A stretch of DNA of 64,000 bases, taken from contig NZ_BPWE01000001.1 in the NCBI RefSeq assembly GCF_020884755.1, positions 310,001 to 374,000 on the forward strand, given 5' to 3'. Shown piece by piece: positions 24,815 to 36,005 of this stretch (position 1 is its first letter; every line of letters begins with the position of its first letter). Made by a program: the position numbers and the translations under genes. This DNA comes from Bifidobacterium mizhiense. GTDB taxonomy: Bacteria; Actinomycetota; Actinomycetes; Actinomycetales; Bifidobacteriaceae. The notes below the pieces were generated by a model. That model saw only the letters and a list, made by a program, of their open reading frames with translations. It searched no databases and had not been told where the DNA came from.

Positions 24815-26710
24815 ATGGGCAAGCTTCTGGACAGCATCGACTCCCCAAAGGATCTGAAGGTTCTTTCCTTGGAAGAGCTGAATCGACTGGCCGACGAGAT
24901 CCGTCAGCTGCTGATCAGCTTCTGTCGACGTCACGGCGGCCACCTGGGCTCCAACCTGGCCACCATCGAGCCCATCATCGCCCTGCACTACGTCTTCGAT
25001 ATGCCTCATGACCACCTGATCTTCGACGTCTCCCATCAGGCCTACACCCACAAGATTCTGACCGGTCGGCGCCGGGCCTACACGGACCCGGAGTCCCAGG
25101 AGGATCTTTCCGGATTCACTTCGCCCAAGGAGAGCCCCTACGACGACTTTATGCTGGGGCACACCGGCACCTCCATCGGTCTGGCCTGCGGGATGGCTGC
25201 CCAGCGGGATGCGACCGGAGGCAAGGCCAACATCATCGCCTTCATCGGGGACGGCTCCCTGAGCAGCGGGCCGGCATTCGAGGGGCTGGACTGGGCTGCA
25301 GAACAGGGCGGCAACCTGATCATCGTGGTCAATGACAACGAAATGTCCATCGCTGAAAACCACGGGGGGCTCTACAAGAGCCTGGCGGCCCTGCGTGCCA
25401 GTGGGGGACGCAGCCCGGGCAATCCCTTCTGCGCCCTTGGACTGGACTACCGCTATGTGGAGGAGGGCAACCGAATTGAGGATCTGATCGAGGCCTTCCG
25501 TCAGGTCAAAGACACTGACCATCCGGTGGTGGTTCACATCCACACCCGCAAGGGCCTGGGGCTGGGCCAGGGCAGCCCAGAACAGATCGGCCCGGCCTCC
25601 ATGGATGGGGGTATTGGCGAAAAAGCCCGTATGACCCCCCTGCCCGACCTGCCCGCCGAAGGTCCAGTGGAGGCCAACCACTGGCAGGACGGCTTGGACT
25701 CTCTGGACCGTCTGCCAAACTCACGAAAGACTTACGGAAGAATGGCCATGCAGGCCCTGGAGGCCAGGTTCCCGCAGGAGCCGGGCCTGACGGTCATCTC
25801 CCCCGCTACGCCGCTGTCCAATGGCATCGATCCCGACTTCCGCCAACGGGCCGGAAACCACTACCGGGACGTGGGCATCGCCGAATCCCATGCGATAGCT
25901 TATGCCGCGGGCATCGCCAAGGCCGGAGGCACGCCTGTAGTCGCCACCTCAGCCACCTTCTTCCAGAGGGCCTACGACCAGATCGAGCAGGAGATGGCCT
26001 TGAACGGCAGTGCGGTGACCCTGCTGGTCTTCTCCACCGGAGTGGCCAAAACCGACGCTACACATTCCGGCACAGCCGACATGGTCATGATGCGAGGCAT
26101 CCCCGGACTGACCTGCCTAGCTCCGACCAGCGGGGCCGAGTTTTTGGACATGCTGGCCTGGGCCACGGGTCCGGCCCGGCAGCCGGTGGTCATCAGGGTA
26201 CCCGGCGAGCGCACGCTGGCGACTGAACGCGCAGGCAAGCCGATAGCGGCGTCTGCAGATCCCTCGAAGACCGATGCCGAATGCAGATCGGACGATGCTC
26301 CCTGGGATCGCTATCGCATCCTGCAAGGGGGTAGAACAGTAGCCCTGCTGGCTCTCGGCGATGCCCTGCCGCTGGGCCATGACCTTGCTGATTCTTTGGA
26401 GAAGTCCACGGGGCTGAAACCCACACTGGTGGATCCTCATCGCTATGACCGTTTGGATGAGCAGACCTTGGATGACCTGGCCAGCACCCACTCCCTGGTG
26501 GTCACCATCGAGGACGGCCAGCTGGACGGCGGCTGGGGACAGGCCGTGGCAGCCTACTACGGACCGAGCCAGGTTCGCACCCTGGCCTTCGGAGCGGCCA
26601 AGGAGTTCAATGACCGGATTCCCCAGGCCACCCTGCTGGAAAGGTATGGCATGACCGTTCCTGCAATGAGGCAAGCCATATCGGATGCCCTTGGCGACCA
26701 GGCTTCATAG
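24815..26710 (+). CDS. dxs: 1-deoxy-D-xylulose-5-phosphate synthase-like thiamine-diphosphate enzyme
   Basis: About 631 residues from ATG 24815, two bases after a near-perfect AGGAGGG. The transketolase-fold TPP domain shows HLGSNLATIEPIIALHYVFD, FDVSHQAYTHKILTGRR, GHTGTSIGLACGMA, the GDGSLSSGPAFEGLDWA ThDP motif and NDNEMSIAENHGG. The pyrimidine-binding domain shows YRDVGIAESHAIAYAAGIAKAGG with the catalytic Glu. It resembles the GFTSP-type branch of DXS-like proteins rather than the E. coli type (GGLHPF), so it may be true DXS for isoprenoid, thiamine or pyridoxal synthesis, or a related acyloin-forming enzyme. Divergent from purE; followed by the tRNA-Arg gene. Confidence 0.72.
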   Translation: MGKLLDSIDSPKDLKVLSLEELNRLADEIRQLLISFCRRHGGHLGSNLATIEPIIALHYVFDMPHDHLIFDVSHQAYTHKILTGRRRAYTDPESQEDLSGFTSPKESPYDDFMLGHTGTSIGLACGMAAQRDATGGKANIIAFIGDGSLSSGPAFEGLDWAAEQGGNLIIVVNDNEMSIAENHGGLYKSLAALRASGGRSPGNPFCALGLDYRYVEEGNRIEDLIEAFRQVKDTDHPVVVHIHTRKGLGLGQGSPEQIGPASMDGGIGEKARMTPLPDLPAEGPVEANHWQDGLDSLDRLPNSRKTYGRMAMQALEARFPQEPGLTVISPATPLSNGIDPDFRQRAGNHYRDVGIAESHAIAYAAGIAKAGGTPVVATSATFFQRAYDQIEQEMALNGSAVTLLVFSTGVAKTDATHSGTADMVMMRGIPGLTCLAPTSGAEFLDMLAWATGPARQPVVIRVPGERTLATERAGKPIAASADPSKTDAECRSDDAPWDRYRILQGGRTVALLALGDALPLGHDLADSLEKSTGLKPTLVDPHRYDRLDEQTLDDLASTHSLVVTIEDGQLDGGWGQAVAAYYGPSQVRTLAFGAAKEFNDRIPQATLLERYGMTVPAMRQAISDALGDQAS

Positions 26711-26754
26711 ATCTGACCCGCCGGTGGACCCAGGCGGGTACAATGAAAGGGTTT

Positions 26755-26828
26755 GGCCCCGTAGCTCAGCTGGATAGAGCAACTGACTTCTAATCTGTAG
26801 GTCGAGAGTTCGAATCTCTCCGGGGTCA
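26755..26828 (+). tRNA. tRNA-Arg (anticodon TCT)
   Basis: The 74-base cloverleaf folds with a 7-bp acceptor stem (GGCCCCG with CGGGGTC, one G-U pair), the D stem GCTC/GAGC, anticodon loop CTTCTAA (anticodon TCT, reads AGA) and a 5-bp T stem GAGAG/CTCTC closing TTCGAAT. The CCA end is not encoded. The anticodon stem has a T-T mismatch in the middle pair. The gene sits at the left edge of an AT-richer island with integrase remnants, which is the classical use of tRNA 3' ends as attachment sites. Confidence 0.93.
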
Positions 26829-26839
26829 CTTGGCAAACC

Positions 26840-26867
26840 ACTACTCCTGACAAGGTAGTAGGGGTTT
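26840..26867 (+). terminator. Weak terminator-like hairpin after tRNA-Arg
   Basis: ACTA (26840-26843) can pair with TAGT (26856-26859), and CCT (26846-26848) with AGG (26853-26855), followed by GGGGTTTTAT. The stem is short and bulged, but its position 12 bases after the tRNA and its T tract fit transcript termination. Confidence 0.4.
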
Positions 26868-26900
26868 TATCTTATCTCCAAGAGCACAGACAATTTACAG

Positions 26901-26922
26901 TTTGTGTGCCATTTGTGTGCCA
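26901..26922. repeat. Tandem 11-bp direct repeat next to tRNA-Arg
   Basis: TTTGTGTGCCA occurs twice with no gap (26901-26911 and 26912-26922), 73 bases downstream of the tRNA. Short tandem repeats beside a tRNA attachment site are what arm-type integrase or excisionase binding sites look like. With only an integrase remnant left nearby, this is probably the relic of an attL junction. Confidence 0.5.
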
Positions 26923-26934
26923 CAATCAGCAAAA

Positions 26935-27144
26935 TCACCAGGACACCCTGTACCTGCGCTTGATCTCCCTGACGGTCCGCTCGGTGGCCCCGTACCGGAT
27001 GGCGGCGAGGCCGGTTCTGATCTGCTGGTGCATGGTGGCAAGGCGCACGCGGTCCTGCCGGCTGAGGCCGGCTTGCTGCTCTTGGCCGATGACCTGGTCG
27101 AGCCGCTTGTGCAGGAGGATGGTCAGCCGCTCCCGCTTATCATC
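26935..27144 (-). pseudogene. Remnant of a small mobile-element protein, N-terminus missing
   Basis: An open minus-strand frame of about 69 codons ends with TGA at 26935-26937 and is bounded upstream by TAG (27145-27147), with no plausible start until an internal Met near the middle. It reads like real protein: charged and helical, with segments RLTILLHKRLDQVIGQEQQ, GLSRQDRVRLATMHQQIR and GLAAIRYGATERTVREIKRR. The GC-rich codon use matches the host genome rather than the AT-rich island. I do not recognise a named family; the position beside tRNA-Arg suggests a leftover of an integrated element. Confidence 0.4.
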
Positions 27145-27383
27145 CTAGGCGGGTGTGTAGCCGGGGTGGTTTTGGGAATCTGACTGATGTCATCTGAAGT
27201 GTACATGACTTGGGTAATAGGACAATCGACGTTGGCTATCCGGCGGTGAAACGTCACTTGACGCCATCTCTGTAGTTCCTCTGGGTCCGGCATGTAGCCG
27301 GTGTAAACACGATTTCGGAAAATGAAAACTGCAATAATAAAAAATAGAACCGAAACATGGTCCGATTAAGTAGGGAGGTCCAT

Positions 27384-27740
27384 ATGGGCCAAATGGAAAT
27401 AGAAGCCAGATGTTTATTCCCTGATGCATGGTTGATGAGTGCTTTGGCTCTGACACACGATCAGGTCTCTGCATGGAAAGAGGATGGTCAGCCTTTACCC
27501 GAGAGGGCCTGGAAGGGTCTTCAGTCTCTGATGAGCAGGGGCGGGAACAACACGAGCAAAGACTACACCAGTGATGACCCGTTGAGGTGCACGTACAGCA
27601 AAACTCTCGATTGCATGTTGGACAGAGTGGATAGCAAGACCGCCACCGATCAGATAGGCAGTCGGTCATTCAGGATGAGAATGCCGTTTGGCTGGATCGA
27701 TTATCGTAACAACCAGATGCGATCGACTAAATCACGTTAG
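27384..27740 (+). CDS. Small hypothetical protein in the island, possibly DNA-binding
   Basis: 118 residues starting at ATG 27384 with GGGAGG six to seven bases upstream, which is the main reason to list it. The segment around residues 15-50 (LMSALALTHDQVSAWKEDGQPLPERAWKGLQSLM) could form helices with a Trp-containing turn, as in phage-type HTH proteins, but I cannot place it in a family. The second half is Ser/Thr/Arg-rich and looks degenerate. It lies between two mobile-element remnants, so it may itself be a broken gene. Confidence 0.3.
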   Translation: MGQMEIEARCLFPDAWLMSALALTHDQVSAWKEDGQPLPERAWKGLQSLMSRGGNNTSKDYTSDDPLRCTYSKTLDCMLDRVDSKTATDQIGSRSFRMRMPFGWIDYRNNQMRSTKSR

Positions 27741-27795
27741 CGCTCCATCAGAAGACGACGTAGGTACTATTTGTTCTGATGTAAAATGTTGTGCG

Positions 27796-27981
27796 GACTT
27801 CACCACCCCGCACAGCTTGCGCCGCACCTTTGCCACCCTCTTACAGGAGACCGGCGTACCCGACCACGACATAATCGCCGCAGCAGGATGGGTCGACGAC
27901 ACCACGCTCAACTACTACGACATGCACAACCACGCCATCCAAGGCAAGGCTACCAGCACGCTCAGCCAATATCTCGCATAG
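27796..27981 (+). pseudogene. Tyrosine recombinase (phage integrase), C-terminal fragment
   Basis: About 61 codons ending at TAG 27979-27981 encode the end of a tyrosine recombinase catalytic domain. The H-x-x-R box is TPHSLRRTFATLLQETG. Next comes the segment DHDIIAAAGWVDDTTLNYYDM, with Trp where many family members have His and the catalytic Tyr in NYY, and then a short tail. The upstream part of the gene, including the first catalytic Arg, is not in frame, so the enzyme is dead. It is the clearest evidence that the tRNA-Arg site once received an integrating element. Confidence 0.75.
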
Positions 27982-28006
27982 ATGCGTCAGGCCGTCTGCA
28001 TTAATC

Positions 28007-28019
28007 GGGGGGGGGGGGG
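28007..28019. repeat. Homopolymer of 13 G
   Basis: An uninterrupted run of 13 G lies 25 bases after the integrase remnant and 185 bases before the toxin start. Poly-G tracts drive slipped-strand phase variation in other bifidobacterial loci, but no open frame spans this one, so any effect would be on transcription. A sequencing-length error in the run is also possible. Confidence 0.85.
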
Positions 28020-28204
28020 CACAACAAGGCCAGAGTACCCGGAGAAAAGAGCCCTTCCAACGATCGAATATTAAATGTGGATAACTCATAGTTGCAAAAC
28101 TCAAATCTGCACTGCTGAGCCGCCAAATGATCATATCTCGACAATCCCACTCACACGCATTAAAGTCAGAAGTGTTGATTGGGCGCTACAGGCAAGGAGC
28201 GGGG

Positions 28205-28723
28205 ATGCCAAAGAAAAGGTCAGCAAAGTCATCGCTATGCTACAAGCAGTCATCGAATGAATATCACTTCCATAAGTGCACAACAGCGAACCCCAATAAC
28301 ACTGTTTGTTTCGTTGAAGAAGACTTAAACGCAATGAGTTATAGCCTAGGGCTCACGGATTTCTCCACCTTAATGAACAACGTGAAACTTATTATCGATG
28401 ATGTAAAAAAAGGTTCACTGGTAAAGGAAGACCCCCGTTTTGGTCCATTGGTCAAACCCTGTGCCACGCAACCTGACATTTGGGAGCTACGCTGGGAGAT
28501 ATGGGATCGCCACTTCCGCATGTACTATTCTGAAGATGGTGATCGTATCCCGGAATTTGTGGCACTCTCGTTTACTGAAAAAGCTACGAAAGGCTTATCG
28601 AACGCCCAGATTAAGAATAACCAGAATAACGCGATTGCAACCGCACAACAACGTTTCAATAATTATGGAAGCCTACGGTGGGGTCATGCAGAACAGGGAT
28701 GCCGATACTGTAAATGGAATTAA
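28205..28723 (+). CDS. HigB-like toxin of a predicted toxin-antitoxin-chaperone operon
   Basis: 172 residues from ATG 28205, with AAGGAG upstream. A later ATG (28334) would drop the segment EYHFHKC...CFVEED, which lines up with the start of the family, so I prefer 28205. The core is RelE/HigB (Gp49-like): a helix VKLIIDDVKKGSLVKE, then DIWELRWEIWDRHFRMYYSEDG (residues 91-112), FVALSFTEKATKG and a last helix NNAIATAQQRFNNY. Toxins of this fold cut mRNA on the ribosome. From memory, the order of elements matches M. tuberculosis HigB1 (Rv1955). AT-richer than flanking host genes. Followed after 19 bases by the antitoxin. The last 15 residues (Cys-rich) are unusual. Confidence 0.72.
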   Translation: MPKKRSAKSSLCYKQSSNEYHFHKCTTANPNNTVCFVEEDLNAMSYSLGLTDFSTLMNNVKLIIDDVKKGSLVKEDPRFGPLVKPCATQPDIWELRWEIWDRHFRMYYSEDGDRIPEFVALSFTEKATKGLSNAQIKNNQNNAIATAQQRFNNYGSLRWGHAEQGCRYCKWN

Positions 28724-28742
28724 CGCAGGAAAGGAGGAGATC

Positions 28743-29153
28743 ATGAAATACAAAGATGCGGATCAATACAGTCTCGAAGACAAGCTGGCATATGGGGACG
28801 TTCAGAAAATTTCCGAGTTTAATGCCAGGCACTTTTATGAGATGAAAAAGGCTCTGATCCGTAAAAGACAAAAGCTTTGCTCTCTTGATCGCATCGCTGA
28901 GATACTACACAAGCCTATAGAGCAAGTAGCCGATTTTGAACACTATTATTCCGACCCTACTGTTTCGCAGCTGCAGGAATACGCTTTGGCAGTTATGTGC
29001 GTAGTGGATATTAAAGTTACCGATTTTGATCCTGACAACTCGAGCATGTACAGCAAAATGAGCGTCCCAGTTGATGCGTCAGGGTTAGTCGGCATCACTC
29101 CTAGCGCTAAATCAAGAGATATACCTATAGAAGAGCGTGAGGTTGTCAAATGA
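28743..29153 (+). CDS. HigA-like XRE antitoxin with long C-terminal tail
   Basis: 136 residues; ATG 28743 is preceded by AAGGAGGAG, the strongest ribosome site of the three genes, as expected for excess antitoxin. An XRE-type helix-turn-helix occupies residues 34-90 (MKKALIRKRQKLCSLDRIAEIL, QVADFEHYYSDPTVSQLQEYALAV). Residues 95-136 form a low-complexity, partly hydrophobic tail (MSVPVDASGLVGITPSAKS...EEREVVK). In chaperone-controlled HigA antitoxins such a tail is the chaperone-addiction region that the SecB-like partner must cover. The protein should also repress its own operon. Overlaps the next gene by four bases (ATGA). Confidence 0.75.
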   Translation: MKYKDADQYSLEDKLAYGDVQKISEFNARHFYEMKKALIRKRQKLCSLDRIAEILHKPIEQVADFEHYYSDPTVSQLQEYALAVMCVVDIKVTDFDPDNSSMYSKMSVPVDASGLVGITPSAKSRDIPIEEREVVK

Positions 29154-29584
29154 CTCTGTCTCTGCCAAAAATCAAAGAGATGGATATGCGCAAGGCCATC
29201 GGTGAAGTCAGTCTGATGGTGCCGGTCGATGGCCACATCAACCAAATACGAAATGACTTGAATATTGCTTACAGCATTATCAAAAAGGATGATGAACCCA
29301 GCAATGAACTGAAGGTGACGCTTGAATGCGATATACATACAGACGAAAAGGCAGACCCAGATACTGCTGGCAAGCTTGAGGCGAATGTTGAGATAGTCTA
29401 TCAAGTCGTGCTCAACGATACGTTTAATCCGGCCAACATAGAAGATGTCATGCTTGTTGTTTGGCCGTATCTTAGGTTAGGTGCTTTGCACCAGATGCAG
29501 CTGATTGATTTAGGTTTCGTGGGCGACGAATTGCCCTACGAGGTCTTGCGGAAAAAACCCGAAAATGCAAGTACCCCAGAATAG
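29150..29584 (+). CDS. SecB-like chaperone (TAC component)
   Basis: 144 residues starting inside the antitoxin stop (ATGA), so production is coupled. The fold clues are SecB-like: beta strands NELKVTLECDIHTDEK and KLEANVEIVYQVVLND (residues 52-90), a helix leading to VVWPYLRLGALHQM (103-116), and a terminal strand LIDLGFVGDELPYEVL. SecB proteins carry the same order: a strand that builds the sheet, a [FY]PY[AIL]R-type helix and a hydrophobic strand. No signal peptide. In TAC operons this chaperone binds the antitoxin tail and prevents its degradation. High divergence from E. coli SecB makes this a structural inference; gene order supports it strongly. Confidence 0.65.
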   Translation: MTLSLPKIKEMDMRKAIGEVSLMVPVDGHINQIRNDLNIAYSIIKKDDEPSNELKVTLECDIHTDEKADPDTAGKLEANVEIVYQVVLNDTFNPANIEDVMLVVWPYLRLGALHQMQLIDLGFVGDELPYEVLRKKPENASTPE

Positions 29585-29593
29585 TGTGGACGC

Positions 29594-29640
29594 AAAACTA
29601 TGCCCTCTCTCCGATCTCCCGAAGCGAGGGCATAGTTTTA
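29594..29640 (+). terminator. Perfect 14-bp terminator hairpin after the TAC operon
   Basis: AAAACTATGCCCTC (29594-29607) pairs perfectly with GAGGGCATAGTTTT (29626-29639) around an 18-base loop, nine bases after the SecB-like stop. The A tract on the left and T tract on the right make it usable from both directions. It isolates the three-gene operon from the remnants to its right. Confidence 0.88.
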
Positions 29641-29670
29641 ATGCGATTATTTGCCGCTGGCAGCCTTGTA

Positions 29671-29742
29671 CTAGCTGACACCGATGCAGGCGGCGACCAG
29701 TAGGCCCAAGGTGTTGAGCGTGGTGACGATCACGTCCACATG
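29671..29742 (-). pseudogene. Short remnant of a membrane-protein C-terminus
   Basis: On the minus strand a frame ending in TAG at 29671-29673 encodes about 24 residues with a hydrophobic helix (LNTLGLLVAACIGVS) after VDVIVTT; a stop bounds it upstream. Codon use is host-like. Too short to identify. The rest of 29640-29836 shows nothing else I can support. Confidence 0.25.
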
Positions 29743-29836
29743 CGGCAGGTACCCTCAGATGGGTCTGGCTGGCAGTATGCAGCGTACAAGTATGCTATTC
29801 TTTCTGCTATCGACCAATGATCGCCTGCATGCTCAT

Positions 29837-30286
29837 TCAAAACAGCCCTTGCCTGTAGAGCAAATCGTTGACTTTCTTCAGAGGTGATGGTCTTTTCTGT
29901 AAAACCTGATATTCAAGCGGACGCAGCGTGCCTATATCCAGCAGGTTAACCGTCTTTTCTTCAGACGAAGGTTGATGCTGATTATCAGGCGGCACCGTAG
30001 TGAACCGCAGCAAGCATTGCTCCAAGGTCGGCTCTCTGCCGGATACGGTGAGGAAAGGCTTTTTATAACCATTCTGCCCAAGAAGATCAAGAACGACATC
30101 AGGATCAAACGCCAGAAAATAGACACCATCCAAGAGCTCAGCATCAGCGACAAGAACTTGGGGACTATAGAGGAATGCCGTTCTGAAAATGCCTGCAAAT
30201 CGTTCGAGAAACTCAGGATGCTGCTGAATGGTTCTCTCGCAGATGCTCACGCCGTCAGGACCATCTGACCAGAACTCCGAATTCAC
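29837..30286 (-). pseudogene. Conserved-looking hypothetical protein, probably truncated
   Basis: 149 codons from GTG 30286; the frame stays open about 30 codons further upstream with no good start. The first 95 residues look like true protein (CERTIQQHPEFLERFAGIF, QVLVADAELLDGVYFLAFDP, VVLDLLGQ, REPTLEQCLLRF), alternating helices and hydrophobic strands. The last 50 residues are irregular and Lys/Pro-rich, suggesting the frame has run out of its original gene. Actinobacterial hypothetical proteins with a similar VLVTDAQLLDG-type motif come to mind, with no known function. Isolated on the minus strand inside the decayed island. Confidence 0.4.
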
Positions 30287-30956
30287 CTCCGGGATGCGCT
30301 TTTGATCGCACTTTTGCTTGCTGTTGCATTGATGCCTGACCTGATTCCAATCGTTCAGCTGTTCCTATGAATCGAAATTGGTCAGCATGATGGCATATGG
30401 GCATACGCTCTGACTCATGTCTTTATGCTAGACCTCGTGTTTGTCTGTTCGTTCAGCACATCTCCCCCCCCCTTTAAAGCAGTACAAACAACTAAGCATG
30501 AAAGAAAATGTCAAAAAGACCGATTGCTGATCATTGAGACCCGGAATATTCTACGCCGCTGTTGCCGCTTCCCTTGGAGGTTATCTGCACATGAGCAGAA
30601 ACTCGAATATGCCCGTACCTATAAACAAGAATCTTGCTCACTGACCCTCTTTGCTGCCTGTAAGCGCACGTTCTGCTCTTGCAAATCCTATTCGAGACAC
30701 ATATCAAAGCCACCAGTTGAGAACAAACTCACGTCTATTTGCTTCAACAGCCAACCCTAGGACCAGCCGTTTCCCGTAGATCCACAGAACAATCCGCCGA
30801 CAACGGCGTAGAGAGCACGTCCATGGCTAAATAATCCTTAGCTCAATTTTTTAAGACTTGTCTAAGCGGTTTTCAGTGCCAGGCCCTCCCCTTAATCAAG
30901 CCCTCTCGGAGATATAATGATACATTCCCACAATGGCATCCACAGGAAAGGCAACC
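30287..30956. other. Intergenic stretch, island right flank, no gene supported
   Basis: The stretch has mixed base composition, a run of nine C at 30464-30472 and several short open frames with Cys/Arg-rich, non-protein-like translations. I found no copy of the tRNA-Arg 3' end that would mark the far attachment site. Host-like sequence resumes at about 30930. Confidence 0.5.
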
Positions 30957-31163
30957 ATGAACGATCGGTATCAACCAACAGATCAGCAAGCAGGCGACAA
31001 CCAAGACCCGGCTCAGGAAAACAATAATGACTCTGGCCACAAGGGATACAGCCAGGAGTCTGCCAACAACAACTACGAGTCCGCTTCCCAACAAGGGAAT
31101 CCCTCGACAGCTGCCGATGGCTACCCTGATGCGGATCAGTCCTGGCAGGCTTCAAACGCCTAG
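30957..31163 (+). CDS. Low-complexity N-terminal part of a TM2-domain protein, cut by two stop codons
   Basis: 68 residues from ATG 30957 (AGGAAAGG upstream; an ATG at 30933 lacks a site). The sequence is Gln/Asn/Asp/Ser-rich and disordered, with YxPxDQ-like repeats, the usual cytoplasmic linker of actinobacterial TM2 proteins. It ends at TAG 31161-31163 followed at once by TGA 31164-31166. The same frame then continues open, still Pro/Gln/Tyr/Ser-rich (DPYGQTAYTPQSSG), straight into the TM2 domain at 31281. The simplest reading is one gene broken by nonsense changes. Confidence 0.6.
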   Translation: MNDRYQPTDQQAGDNQDPAQENNNDSGHKGYSQESANNNYESASQQGNPSTAADGYPDADQSWQASNA

Positions 31164-31280
31164 TGAGGTCCACAGGATCCATATGGCCAAACCGCATATA
31201 CTCCTCAATCCAGCGGCACCAGCGGACCGGTCCAAATTGAGCCTTGGCAGCTTCAGACACAATATGTCAGCGGACCCGGC

Positions 31281-31526
31281 ATGTCGAACAAGTCGAAGGT
31301 CACGGCGGCCATTCTGTCTTTCTTCCTAGGCGGCTTCGGCATACACAACTTTTATCTAGACAAGACCGGGCGTGGGGTCGCACAGTTGCTGATCACCATC
31401 TTCGTGCTCTTCATCGGCCCTCTCATCTCCTCGGTCTGGGCCATCGTTGAAGGAACACAGATTCTTGGCTCACATCCAGGTTCGCCTTACCACATGGACG
31501 GCAAGGAACTCCAGCTGCAGGATTAA
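31281..31526 (+). CDS. TM2-domain membrane protein (in frame with the broken upstream segment)
   Basis: 81 residues: basic start MSNKSK, then the TM2 pair of helices VTAAILSFFLGGFGIHNFYLDKTGRGVAQLL and ITIFVLFIGPLISSVWAIVEG, joined by the characteristic G-x-x-x-x-H-x-F-Y turn. The function of TM2 proteins in bacteria is unknown. ATG 31281 has no clear ribosome site, which fits it being the middle of a longer gene that begins at 30957 and is interrupted at 31161-31166. Reinitiation could still yield this piece. Confidence 0.7.
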   Translation: MSNKSKVTAAILSFFLGGFGIHNFYLDKTGRGVAQLLITIFVLFIGPLISSVWAIVEGTQILGSHPGSPYHMDGKELQLQD

Positions 31527-31551
31527 AGACGACAGACGTCGTGTAATCACG

Positions 31552-34209
31552 TCACGACACCCGAAGGATACCATGCGCGCCTTTTTCGGCCAGGCTCATG
31601 ACGTGATTGACTATGGAATAGTCGCCCGGCTGATCGACCTTGAGCTCGACAAATCCGCCTTGGGCCGGCAGCAGAGGAAGGACCTGCGCTCCGGCCGATG
31701 AAGCACCGGCGGAATTTGAACTTGCGCCTCCGCCAATCAGGTAGCGGCCCTCAGTCCAGACCGTATCGAACTGGGTTCCCACAATATGGAAGGACAGCGG
31801 CTGATTTGGGCCAGCATCCAGAGCCCAGATGCGGACCCTTTGCCCCTTCCCCAGCTTGAGCGGGTGGGCGTCATATTGAAAGGCCCGTCCGTTGAAGGTC
31901 ATAATGTCCGGGCTCATGGCTGCCACCTTTTCGGGATCGGCAGTCCCTCCATTGGATCCCAGATAAATTTCAGACTGGACCAGAACATACTCCGCAGCCA
32001 CTGGCGGTAGGGTGCCGTCATCCACGACCACCGCCCCATACATGCCATTGGCTATGTGGTTTGACATGGGATCGCTGCTGCAGTGGTACATCCAAATGCC
32101 GGCCCGATCAGCAGTGAAGGTGTACAAGAGCTCCTTGCCCGGCTCTATGTTGCGCATCATGGTCTGGGGAACGGCCGGCCCGGCATGAAAGTCGATGGAA
32201 TGGCTCATGCTTCCCTTGTTTCTGATGGTGACTTCAAAGGTGTCTCCCACCCGGCCTCTGAGCACCGGACCCTGAGCCAGAGGCCGCGATCCCTCATCCC
32301 GTGGATCGCTCGCGCCATCGAAGCTCCAGACCGTACGCTCGAGCCCTGCCGCCACCTGCTCCTTGCGCTCTTTGACCTCCAACGTGTACTTTCTTGTTCC
32401 CGCCTTCCCCTGATTCTCCAGAGGCGGAAGAGCCGCCTTGGCAGGGTCGCTCTTCTCGGCCTGCGACTTGAGCTTGGCTGCTGACGGGACATGGCCCAGG
32501 GCTGTCTTCCCAGCGGAGGACTGACCTTGTTCGGCAACAATTCCACCTTTGGTTTTGACCTTGAGCTCCATGCCCATCTGGCGATGCCCTGCCAACGAGC
32601 ACCAACCCAGTGTGTCGCCCCCGAGGACCCCCACGTCAACCGAGACGCTCTGGCCTACAGGGACGGATCCCGTGCTCTTGCCGTTGGCGAAAACCAGGTC
32701 GTGCCGCTGATCCCCGGTGTTTTGAAAATCCACAACCAACCGGTCGCCTGCCTTGATGGTGATGACATCCGGCACAAAAGCCATCCCCTTTACCCTGATT
32801 GAGACTCTGCTGGTGTGACCAGTCGACTGAACGCCCTTCGACGATGCCTCCTGAACGCCCCCGGCACCGGGCGCTGCCCCGACCGAAACAACCAGCGTCG
32901 GCCGCAGGGCCATCACGATCACGGCAGCCACCAGGACCAGCACAGTAGCCGAGGTGGCAATCAGGTCCGTCCTCAATGCCAGGGTCCCCGCGCGTTCGTT
33001 TTGCGAGCCCTCGGGCTGACGCCGACGGTAACGCTTGGATGCCAGAACCTGCTTGCCACGAGCAGCCAGATACACCACGGTGAGCATCATGGAGAGAATT
33101 CCCAGAACATTCAGGAGGTTTCCCGCCTTCCACAAGGGCGTGTAGAGCCGGATGGCCCCAAGGAGCCTGATCAGCAAACCAATCTGCATAAGTCCCCAGA
33201 CGCCCCAGAGAAGGGGGTGAAAGGGTAGAGGCCTGCGAATGACCGAAGGAACGATCATGCAGACATGGGCGATAACCATGGTCATGATGAATCCCACAGC
33301 CAGCGCGTGCAGTGCCATATCGCCCCAGTAGGTGCTGGAGTCCAGGGGCGCCACCATCCAGATGAGGGCAGCCAGCAGTCCCCAGGCATAGGCCGACAGC
33401 ATGCAGGTGCCCATGAATCCTGGCAGGCCGCCATGGCGGAAGGTCCCCTTGGCCACGTCGTGACTGGCCATGACCAGGAGGAGCAGACCCAGCGACAACC
33501 CCAGAAGCGGATAACCGACCGTAGGCGCCATGGCTTGGATCGGCAGCATCAGGACTGTCAGGAGGCTCAGACCAAGAATTCCCGATTCAAGACGGATATC
33601 TGAAAAGACCGCCCTGGCCAGCTCCACCCGCTCCCCGACGATGGTCAAAATCAGAAAGAAGAGCCAGGTTGGGGCCAAAACCGAGGCGTCCAATCCTGCA
33701 ACCCAACCAGCGGCACCGACCAGACCCACCAGGGATCCGAGAACCTGTATGAGCACCTCTGCAGAAGGCTGCCGACGCCAGATGGCCAAGTACATGGCCG
33801 TCAGAACCAACATGGACAAAGTCCATGGAATGCCGCCGAAAAGCTCTACCCTGACCCATGCAGGGGCAGCAACGCGGCTTAAAACTATCAGCGACAGCAA
33901 GCAGAGCAGAGACCCTAGCAAGCCCAAGGCAGGAGCGAGAAATCCCCACGTAGGTTTGCTGGATCCGCCGCTGCGGTAGGCCACTGCCCTCTCCAGGCCA
34001 ATAGCAGCGCCCAAAAACCCAAAGACCATGAGCCCGCCGTGCAGATCAGCCAGGGGCACCCTGCCTGAGGGGTGAATCAGATCCGCGCGAATCAGCGCCG
34101 CTACAAGACCAAGCAGTGCAGCCAGACCCGCCCCGATGAGAAGGGCCATCCTGGACCTGGGCACGGCCATTCTGCCTCCGGACTTACGCATCTTCCGGTC
34201 ATCCTGCAT
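31552..34209 (-). CDS. nirK: Membrane-fused copper nitrite reductase (NirK type) with extra cupredoxin domain
   Basis: 885 residues. Residues 1 to about 385 are a membrane domain of around ten helices. After a linker, residues 455-550 form a cupredoxin with a full type-1 copper set: His503, Cys537, His542 and Met545 or Met547. The final 300 residues are a two-domain NirK. Type-1 ligands are His670, Cys710, His718 and Met723 (YHCSSDPMSNHIANGM). Type-2 ligands are His675, His709 and His869. The catalytic Asp673 and His808 are present (SHSIDFHAGP, FHIVG). All residues needed to reduce nitrite to nitric oxide are there, so it should be active outside the membrane, with the extra cupredoxin and membrane part feeding electrons (inference). 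Divergent from the Fe-S-type regulator gene. Confidence 0.85.
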   Translation of the reverse strand: MQDDRKMRKSGGRMAVPRSRMALLIGAGLAALLGLVAALIRADLIHPSGRVPLADLHGGLMVFGFLGAAIGLERAVAYRSGGSSKPTWGFLAPALGLLGSLLCLLSLIVLSRVAAPAWVRVELFGGIPWTLSMLVLTAMYLAIWRRQPSAEVLIQVLGSLVGLVGAAGWVAGLDASVLAPTWLFFLILTIVGERVELARAVFSDIRLESGILGLSLLTVLMLPIQAMAPTVGYPLLGLSLGLLLLVMASHDVAKGTFRHGGLPGFMGTCMLSAYAWGLLAALIWMVAPLDSSTYWGDMALHALAVGFIMTMVIAHVCMIVPSVIRRPLPFHPLLWGVWGLMQIGLLIRLLGAIRLYTPLWKAGNLLNVLGILSMMLTVVYLAARGKQVLASKRYRRRQPEGSQNERAGTLALRTDLIATSATVLVLVAAVIVMALRPTLVVSVGAAPGAGGVQEASSKGVQSTGHTSRVSIRVKGMAFVPDVITIKAGDRLVVDFQNTGDQRHDLVFANGKSTGSVPVGQSVSVDVGVLGGDTLGWCSLAGHRQMGMELKVKTKGGIVAEQGQSSAGKTALGHVPSAAKLKSQAEKSDPAKAALPPLENQGKAGTRKYTLEVKERKEQVAAGLERTVWSFDGASDPRDEGSRPLAQGPVLRGRVGDTFEVTIRNKGSMSHSIDFHAGPAVPQTMMRNIEPGKELLYTFTADRAGIWMYHCSSDPMSNHIANGMYGAVVVDDGTLPPVAAEYVLVQSEIYLGSNGGTADPEKVAAMSPDIMTFNGRAFQYDAHPLKLGKGQRVRIWALDAGPNQPLSFHIVGTQFDTVWTEGRYLIGGGASSNSAGASSAGAQVLPLLPAQGGFVELKVDQPGDYSIVNHVMSLAEKGAHGILRVS

Positions 34210-34237
34210 GAGTCTGTCCGCCTTGTCCTGGGTTGAT

Positions 34238-34261
34238 AATTGATTTGATAGGTATACAATT
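34238..34261. promoter_or_regulatory. Divergent promoter region with AATTG/CAATT inverted repeat
   Basis: The 58-base gap between nirK and the regulator gene is AT-rich. It contains AATTG (34238-34242) and CAATT (34257-34261) as an inverted repeat around TATAC, a possible -10 element. Arm spacing suits a winged-helix dimer, so it is a candidate operator for the adjacent regulator on both genes. Short arms keep confidence low. Confidence 0.3.
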
Positions 34262-34267
34262 TAATCG

Positions 34268-35020
34268 ATGAGTCAGGAAATTCAAGCCCATGAGCAACAG
34301 ATTCGAACCTCCCGCAAGCGCAGACGCGGGGAGCAGATCCGCTCTGCAATCTTGGATTACCTGCATACGGCGGCCGAACAGACCGGTATAGGTGTAACCG
34401 CACAGCTGGTCGGAGCAGCCTTCGGCATCCATCCGACGACTGCTCGTTTCCATCTTGAACGTCTGGTCGAACAGGGCGAGGTAGTCCGTCAGAGAACAGA
34501 CAGCGACAATCAATCAGCCGTGCGAGGCAGGCCTGCTGTCATCTACGCCCCCACGTCCATGAACCGAGCCAGGGAGGATATGATCTCCTCGCTCTGCCTG
34601 GCACTGGAAACTGCCTGTCCCGATACAAGGAGCAGGAATGAGGCCGCCTTGAAAGCAGGGCAGGCATGGGGTCGTACTCTGGCTCGGCAGGACAAGATCA
34701 ATGCAGGAAAAAGCGTGCCATCGAGCATGACGCAGACACTGCTGGATGCTCTGACCACCTTAGGTTTTGCACCGGTGAGAGCGCGGCCGGATTCAGCAAG
34801 TCTGTATCTGACCGCATGCCCCTTTCTGGAAAGCGTCAGCAACCATCCCATTATCTGCAAGATTCATCTAGGAATGATCCAAGGGCTGGCGGACGGCAGC
34901 AATAAGGAGGCCGGGGACAAAAAAGCCAATGTAGTGTTGAAACCCCTGTCATCGCCAAAAGGATGCTTCCTGAAAGTAGCCAAAGCAGACAGTCGATCAA
35001 AAAGGAGAGTAAAGCAATGA
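34268..35020 (+). CDS. Winged-helix regulator with Cys-rich C-terminal domain (SufR-like, putative Fe-S sensor)
   Basis: 250 residues. A basic N-terminus is followed by a winged helix at about 22-95 ([35 protein letters not shown]). The C-terminal domain contains TACPF at 183-187, [12 protein letters not shown] at 196-207 and a third Cys233 in GCFLK. C-x12-C plus a later Cys near a His-rich helix is the layout of SufR-type [4Fe-4S] repressors; here it would suit nitric-oxide or redox sensing for nirK. Fe-S binding is inferred. The stop overlaps the ferredoxin start (ATGA). A weak ribosome site precedes ATG 34268. Confidence 0.68.
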
Positions 35021-35403
35021 CCTACGTGATTGCCCAGCCCTGCGTGGACGTCAAGGACAAGGCCTGCGTGGACGAATGCCCGGTGGACTGCATCTACGAG
35101 GGCCCCAGGAACCTATACATCAACCCAAACGAATGCATCGACTGCGGTGCCTGCGAGCCCGTCTGCCCGGTGGAGGCCATCTTCTATGAAGAGGATCTGC
35201 CAGAGGAATGGACCTGGTTCAAGGATGCCTCCGAAGACTTCTTCGCCCAAGTCGGTGATGCCGGCGGCGCCCAGGCCCAGGGACCCTACGATCACGACCA
35301 TCCACAGGTCGCCGCCCTGCCCCACCAGGATAATTTCGTCTGCATCCAGCCGGAATCGCGCGGCCAGCGCGCGGTCTGGGTCCGCAAGGACCAAATGGAA
35401 TGA
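35017..35403 (+). CDS. Bacterial-type ferredoxin (7Fe or 2[4Fe-4S])
   Basis: About 128 residues from ATG 35017, inside the regulator stop and after AAAGGAG. The first cluster motif is [21 protein letters not shown] and the second [23 protein letters not shown], followed by the acidic helix EEWTWFKDA typical of actinobacterial FdxA ferredoxins, small cytoplasmic electron carriers. The C-terminal extension to about 128 residues is longer than the usual 105-110. Sandwiched by 4-base overlaps with the regulator and the DNA glycosylase, so the three are one translation-coupled unit. Confidence 0.92.
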
Positions 35404-36005
35404 AGGCCGGTTCAAGCCAGGACGATTACCTGGTCTTCCCAGACTTTCTGGACCGCCCTGTGGAGGAGGCAGCCCGTCTGCTTTTGGGCTGCCTGATCAT
35501 CCGGGACTACGAGTCGGAAGGAAAACAGGCCAGGGTACGGATCGTGGAAACCGAAGCCTACGATCAGAATGATCCGGCCAGCCATGCCTACCATGGACAA
35601 TCGGCCCGCAATGCCGCCCTCTTCGGCCCCAGCGGACACATGTATGTCTACTTCACCTATGGAATGCACTACTGCCTGAACATCTCCTGCCAGCAGGACG
35701 GATTCGGTGCCGGCGTGCTGATTCGAGCCTGCCAGCCAGTGCAGGGTCTGGACCTTCTGCGCATCCACAGGCACGGCCGTCATCCGGACCGGGATCTGAC
35801 CAACGGTCCCGCCAAGCTCTGCCAGGCATTGGACATCGACAAGCGCTACTACGGCCACGACCTCAGAAAACCGCCCATCCGTCTGGCAGCCGACGGACTG
35901 GCCCAGGACGAGACCATCACGGCGACGCCACGAATAGGCATATCCCACGCCAAGGAGACTCTGCGAAGGTTCGTCGTCACAGGCAATCCCTACCTGTCTC
36001 GATAA
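35400..36005 (+). CDS. 3-methyladenine DNA glycosylase (AAG/MPG family)
   Basis: 201 residues of the AAG family, which excises alkylated and deaminated purines from DNA. Motifs are [11 protein letters not shown], the active-site [21 protein letters not shown] with the catalytic Glu, [28 protein letters not shown] and [12 protein letters not shown]. It shares the ATGA of the ferredoxin stop. Repair of deaminated purines (hypoxanthine) beside a nitrite-reductase locus makes sense if nitrosative chemistry is the common theme, but this is inference. Convergent with the MFS gene downstream. Confidence 0.92.

Follow-up and report, generated by a model that had tools for sequence, protein, structure and literature searches.

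A probable toxin-antitoxin-chaperone operon in a prophage remnant of Bifidobacterium mizhiense

Toxin-antitoxin-chaperone (TAC) systems are known, and TAC chaperones that are absent from the SecB family PF02556 have already been reported (PMC4257090). In the TAC of Mycobacterium tuberculosis, Rv1955-Rv1957 (HigB1-HigA1-SecB-TA), the genes for toxin, antitoxin and chaperone follow each other in that order. In CmdTAC, a defence system of Escherichia coli, newly made capsid protein is reported to take the chaperone, which leads to degradation of the antitoxin and release of the toxin (PMC11618068), and a HigBAC module is reportedly activated by the major tail protein of lambda (PMC11980606). A 64,000-nucleotide stretch of the Bifidobacterium mizhiense genome (contig NZ_BPWE01000001.1, positions 310,001 to 374,000; hereafter the window) contains candidate toxin, antitoxin and SecB-like chaperone genes together in one operon. 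We consider it highly probable that this is a TAC operon of the HigBA-SecB type, which arrived as cargo of a prophage resembling the phage BigBern1 and was retained after that prophage decayed.

A 2025 review of Bifidobacterium toxin-antitoxin systems lists a few HigBA pairs, and the words SecB and 'tripartite' are absent from its main text (PMC12724246); 'Bifidobacteri' is likewise absent from the main texts of PMC4257090 and PMC5105189. We found no literature pairing Bifidobacteri with toxin-antitoxin-chaperone in a search outside which supplements and most subscription papers lay.

Gene content and relatives of the operon

The operon consists of three genes on the plus strand, namely a toxin gene (28205..28723; 172 aa, with extra N- and C-terminal ends around a Gp49/HigB-like core), an antitoxin gene (28743..29153; 136 aa, XRE-type with a C-terminal tail) and a SecB-like chaperone gene (29150..29584; 144 aa). 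The first two are separated by a 19-base gap (28724-28742) and the last two share a 4-base ATGA overlap (29150-29153), so that the strand, order and spacing given in an initial annotation of this DNA agree with ours. Windowed G+C content is 0.44-0.46 across the operon, compared to 0.57-0.67 at 20.0-26.7 kb and 0.51-0.63 at 31.25-38 kb, which bears out the description of the operon as AT-richer than its surroundings. Taken singly, the three window proteins reached no curated cut-off in Pfam or NCBIfam, gave no match in a PADLOC search, and had weak matches only in a phmmer search of the PDB (E at least 0.85); their best PHROGs match, that of gene 1, was to a toxin family (E 0.025).

The three-gene arrangement is common to 12 loci, the window included. 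In each of the 11 others, a homologous second gene and then a third gene of 134-153 aa come after the toxin (in L006, after a toxin remnant). The toxin occurs in 6 of 189 genomes of the window's family, its own among them, and the remaining five, which include Bifidobacterium sp. ESL0763 and B. oedipodis, come from one other genus. A viral contig from IMG/VR, L009, encodes a toxin 50% identical to that of the window. The toxin profile matched five genomes beyond its own in an order sample (396 genomes), with weak matches in four (E 1e-7 to 3e-5), and three others in a phylum sample (396 genomes) that matched in the toxin core only, with toxins of 116-120 aa and a helix-turn-helix (HTH) gene. 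The third-protein profile matched none of these three short-toxin loci, so that extended toxins and third genes co-occur in the loci examined. The two-gene gp49-HTH (HigBA) modules L016-L018 resemble the window in a toxin core that matches profile A5 and an XRE antitoxin that matches A6, but their toxins (116-120 aa) lack the added ends and no chaperone gene is present. The toxin and chaperone had no match among 50,697 phage and 72,556 plasmid records, and no relative was found in viral contigs scanned with the L012 toxin or in genome contigs scanned with the gene 3 protein singly; the alignments of gene 3 and of the antitoxin proved too divergent for use in scanning. Several loci were duplicates: L007 and L008 coincide with L002 and L004, and L010, L019 and L071 are further entries for the window or for L009. 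In L006 (genome G088) the toxin gene is broken into separate frames, for which reason alignments A1 and A5 omit it; the frames of the antitoxin and chaperone remain open, as would be expected where the poison is lost first.

The third protein is supported as SecB-like by its pooled family profile, its predicted fold and its operon context. The pooled third-protein profile finds Rv1957 first, and the fold predicted for gene 3 is SecB-like and shared with Rv1957 in Foldseek. This agrees with the initial annotation, and no search placed the protein in a non-SecB family, the outcome named there as telling against a chaperone. The divergence of gene 3, which had been taken as the novel aspect, is not in itself new given the precedents reported in PMC4257090. 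PF02556 gave no match to the window's gene 3, and at E<=1 matched 2 of the 12 third proteins (best E=0.002), falling below the cut-off in the two that were scored. No PF02556 SecB was found elsewhere in the genome, and thus no such protein is available to stand in for gene 3. PF02556 matches from 7 of 296 phylum genomes (4 above the cut-off; loci L020-L028) were kept outside the alignments, and all nine loci were profile-searched; L020, L021, L022, L024 and L025 were read as lists of open reading frames (ORFs). L022, from another family of the phylum, has a PF02556 SecB gene after an MqsA-like gene, as judged by eye from its ORF list, and is a different TAC type.

Gene 1 is supported as a putative Gp49/HigB-like toxin by a weak family match, with Gp49 (PF05973) as its best Pfam match (E=0.008), and by conserved catalytic positions, in line with its earlier description as RelE/HigB-like. 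PF05973 matched 4 of the 11 family toxins at E<=1 (best 6e-5), and a toxin family profile found nothing in the PDB. The catalytic positions are kept in 11/11 toxins; E94, R105, Y107, E110, K126 and W159 do not vary, and either R or K stands at position 96. The two-gene relatives that were examined lack the added ends. All six bifidobacterial or prophage toxins keep C12, H23, C25, C35, H161, C166 and C169, and across the 11 toxins C12 is present in all and H161, C166 and C169 in seven. As a guess, the two ends might build a metal site.

Sequence comparisons also place gene 2 in an XRE-antitoxin family, as had been proposed on the basis of a HigA-like appearance. HTH_3 matches 8 of the 12 family members, and the family profile has 18 matches in the PDB, HigA3 and HipB among them. 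The window's tail comprises 53 residues after a conserved Y-A-x-A, and not the 40 previously counted, and all 12 antitoxins have tails of 44-65 residues. A tail tryptophan, present in eight of the 12 and missing from the window's, is reported as part of the mycobacterial chaperone-binding motif W-x-R...Y (PMC6377645). Antitoxin tails are also reported to have no significant similarity among TACs (PMC5105189).

The window operon thus shares with M. tuberculosis the toxin-antitoxin-chaperone order, the E-2-R-9-R spacing in the toxin (R-to-K distance 21, versus 18 in M. tuberculosis) and the Rv1957-like third protein. It differs in its 172-aa toxin with added ends, in a tail without W-x-R...Y, in a 144-aa chaperone (10-13% identity to its SecB matches in Foldseek alignments), and in its location within a prophage remnant. 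PD-T4-9, which we take to be CmdTAC, also has three parts and a SecB-like chaperone, and in PADLOC the chaperones of three relatives weakly match PD-T4-9_C. CmdT, however, is reported to be an ADP-ribosyltransferase (PMC11618068), unlike the Gp49/HigB-like toxin of the window. On these comparisons we class the operon as a divergent TAC variant. The wider actinobacterial family, like the prophage setting and cargo slot treated below, goes beyond the initial annotation.

The prophage remnant and its cargo slot

The operon lies in an island of 4,037 bp (26830..30866) that replaces 133 bp of the empty site, with breakpoints set by comparing its junctions with the empty site in genome G137 (L033); the site in G128 is similar. 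The island has the features of an insertion at the 3' end of a tRNA gene, with phage genes inside and an empty site in relatives. The tRNA-Arg (TCT) gene, found by ARAGORN on the plus strand (26755..26829), is the attachment site, and its last 52 bases (26778-26829) form the probable phage attachment core, where the match to BigBern1 (MT006237), a phage of B. asteroides, begins. Over 26778-27182 the DNA identity to BigBern1 is 82%, covering the remnant of a left-end phage gene (26830..27182, minus strand) at the place of a 91-aa minus-strand gene in BigBern1. A query joining the 3' end of the preceding gene to the tRNA matched 27/27 genomes of the genus, 13 of them at full length. The distance from the tRNA to the homologue of window position 31000 is about 266 bp in G137 and G128; in the window it is 4.2 kb. 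The 3' end of the tRNA is repeated at the far end of insertions in G144 (52 bp, about 40 kb downstream) and G150 (50 bp, about 44 kb downstream), and at 43 kb in G126 (45 bp).

Within the island are a C-terminal fragment of a tyrosine recombinase, or integrase (27688..27981, plus strand; PF00589 E=2.2e-7), residues 33-96 of which are 81% identical to the second recombinase of BigBern1, and a holin gene remnant (about 29680..29749, minus strand) corresponding to a PF16938 Phage_holin_Dp1 gene in BigBern1. At the DNA level, the holin region matches L009 over 29602-29749 and BigBern1 over 29589-29749. There is no direct repeat that would represent a right-hand copy of the core within 26700-36000 and, given the additional loss of 133 bp from the empty site, the island is a decayed remnant and not a prophage. 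These limits and fragments confirm the decayed island proposed earlier, in which the operon holds the only recognisable intact genes. BigBern1 thus shares with the island the attachment core, the left-end gene, the second recombinase fragment and the holin fragment; in contrast, the phage collection, with BigBern1 among its records, yielded no match to the window's toxin at E<=0.001, nor to its chaperone at E<=0.01. A minus-strand ORF of 149 aa at 29837-30286 has no Pfam match and no counterpart in the six phage or prophage stretches compared.

The holin-lysin region is 83.5% identical over 1.9 kb between L009 and BigBern1; it is nearly whole in G135, G144, G150 and G126, partial in G140, and reduced to a 102-bp fragment in the window's own genome. 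Between the left-end gene and the holin lies a slot whose cargo varies from prophage to prophage. In the window the TAC occupies it between the BigBern1-like recombinase and holin fragments, and in L009 the TAC lies directly before the holin. BigBern1 itself carries a 122-aa gene, its second recombinase and further genes, G144 a 366-aa gene and a ClpP-like protease, G150 a 190-aa gene, and G126 a Cas8e-HTH fusion with smaller genes. G135 (L081) shares the lysis region and not the tRNA site, and its cargo was left out of this comparison. The G144 protease is of the SDH type (L078, 2001-2960, minus strand; PF01972 E=8e-12). The G126 fusion, in a prophage at the same tRNA-Arg, is encoded on the minus strand (L080, 604-3150), with Cse1/Cas8e at residues 94-534 (PF09481 E=3e-55; Cas8e in PADLOC) and a C-terminal HTH (PF13384), and a small gene nearby has weak HTH and Aca2-like matches.

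Comparison of the window with L009 suggests how the slot may evolve. For the three genes DNA identity is 62-68% and protein identity 46-51%. Nonsynonymous differences per site (pN) are 0.31-0.34 and synonymous differences (pS) 0.69-0.82; the low ratio indicates that all three proteins, including that of gene 3, were under selection. Both flanks are better conserved, the leader at 149/178 nucleotides and the hairpin-holin part at 81%. The similar divergence of the three genes, far above that of either flank, suggests, for the two alleles compared, that the trio has been exchanged as a unit within a fixed slot. Two leader-pattern scans for a third slot allele returned the L009 contig only.

The leader (28030..28207, plus strand), aligned with prophage L009 without gaps, is probably a promoter/operator, and was present in one of 189 family genomes, that of the window itself. 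None of its six frames has a coding signal. It was also considered as a structured RNA and as a hidden ORF, and both were rejected on folding z values of -0.23 to 0.54 (both strands, window and L009 sequences) and on the lack of synonymous excess in any frame. Rfam found the tRNA, a sub-threshold match on its opposite strand, and nothing else. A run of 13 G at 28007-28019, some 185 bases before the toxin gene begins, is interrupted at the equivalent place in L009; it could be a slippage-prone site that varies expression, or a weak spot in sequencing. Downstream of the genes, a hairpin at 29594-29639 (plus strand; arms of 20 nt), partly inside the stretch of 29602-29749 that is 81% identical to L009, probably terminates transcription. 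What had been described here as a perfect terminator is a strong hairpin (dG -29.3 kcal/mol, z -5.6) with arms 90% complementary, but a terminator scan did not list it, probably because the T run is of four and lies within the stem.

Competing readings

Several results weigh against a TAC of the HigBA-SecB type. The Gp49 match of gene 1 is below the curated cut-off, the catalytic positions were matched by spacing and not by alignment to Rv1955, and the toxin model, with a pLDDT of 57, is poor and has no fold match (best Foldseek E 3.5). The window antitoxin alone matches no HTH model and lacks the W-x-R...Y motif. Gene 3 alone has no SecB family match, and the TM-scores of its SecB matches in Foldseek are 0.38-0.51. 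A profile made from the seven bifidobacterial or prophage third proteins alone found nothing in the PDB, hhalign joined these seven to the other five over only 14 columns around WPYLR, and profile A4 found none of the PF02556-type SecB loci L020-L028.

Among the alternatives, the one that survives best, although we think it rather unlikely, is that the TAC is kept only as an addiction unit, whose antitoxin side could not be lost without killing the cell, and has no role against phages. The survival of the operon as the sole recognisable intact genes of a decayed remnant speaks for this, as do the absence of the toxin from the 26 other genomes of the genus and of the whole island from the G137 and G128 sites that were read. 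Against it, prophages at the same site carry other slot cargo such as the Cas8e-HTH fusion, as expected of a slot for phage-phage conflict, and a known TAC is reported to sense a phage protein (PMC11618068). Retention in the remnant fits either addiction or continued use.

It is very improbable that the operon is a plain two-gene HigBA pair with an unrelated beta-sheet phage protein merely downstream. The lack of a SecB profile match for gene 3 alone is consistent with such an arrangement, and the best Pfam match of gene 3, a phage tail domain, stays below threshold (E=0.023; 0.001 in L009), but gene 3 follows the pair in 12/12 loci, including other families of the order, and has the predicted SecB-like fold, the Rv1957 profile match, and pN below pS. 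Slightly less probable still is a regulatory switch made of a solitary XRE regulator and a modified, non-toxic RelE-like partner, to which the weak toxin family match and poor toxin model would be suited and against which the catalytic positions kept in 11/11 toxins count.

Proposed mechanism and implications

If the operon is a TAC, then by analogy with established systems the toxin would cleave mRNA on the ribosome, and the antitoxin would bind and block it and, by binding the operon's own leader, repress the operon. The tail of gene 2 would require the gene 3 chaperone, without which the antitoxin would be degraded. A phage structural protein that captured the chaperone would free the toxin; we give this phage-triggered step, which is drawn from other TACs, roughly even chances. 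The operon would then act as a superinfection switch, with addiction as a side effect, and a prophage TAC beside lysis genes fits a possible role in excluding other phages.

We also offer, as an unlikely conjecture, a phage-against-phage alarm, in which the prophages of bee bifidobacteria would swap whole TAC alleles as units within one fixed slot next to the lysis genes, every chaperone would be tuned for the capture of structural proteins from competing phages, and the added Cys/His-bearing ends of the toxin would serve as a metal- or redox-sensitive clasp.

The probable TAC in B. mizhiense would place chaperone-controlled toxin-antitoxin systems in bifidobacteria and their prophages, and would represent a TAC family that standard profiles miss. 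For the sensing of phage structural proteins by TAC chaperones, it may provide a setting in a non-pathogen for which an integrase-bearing phage that shares the attachment site has been sequenced.
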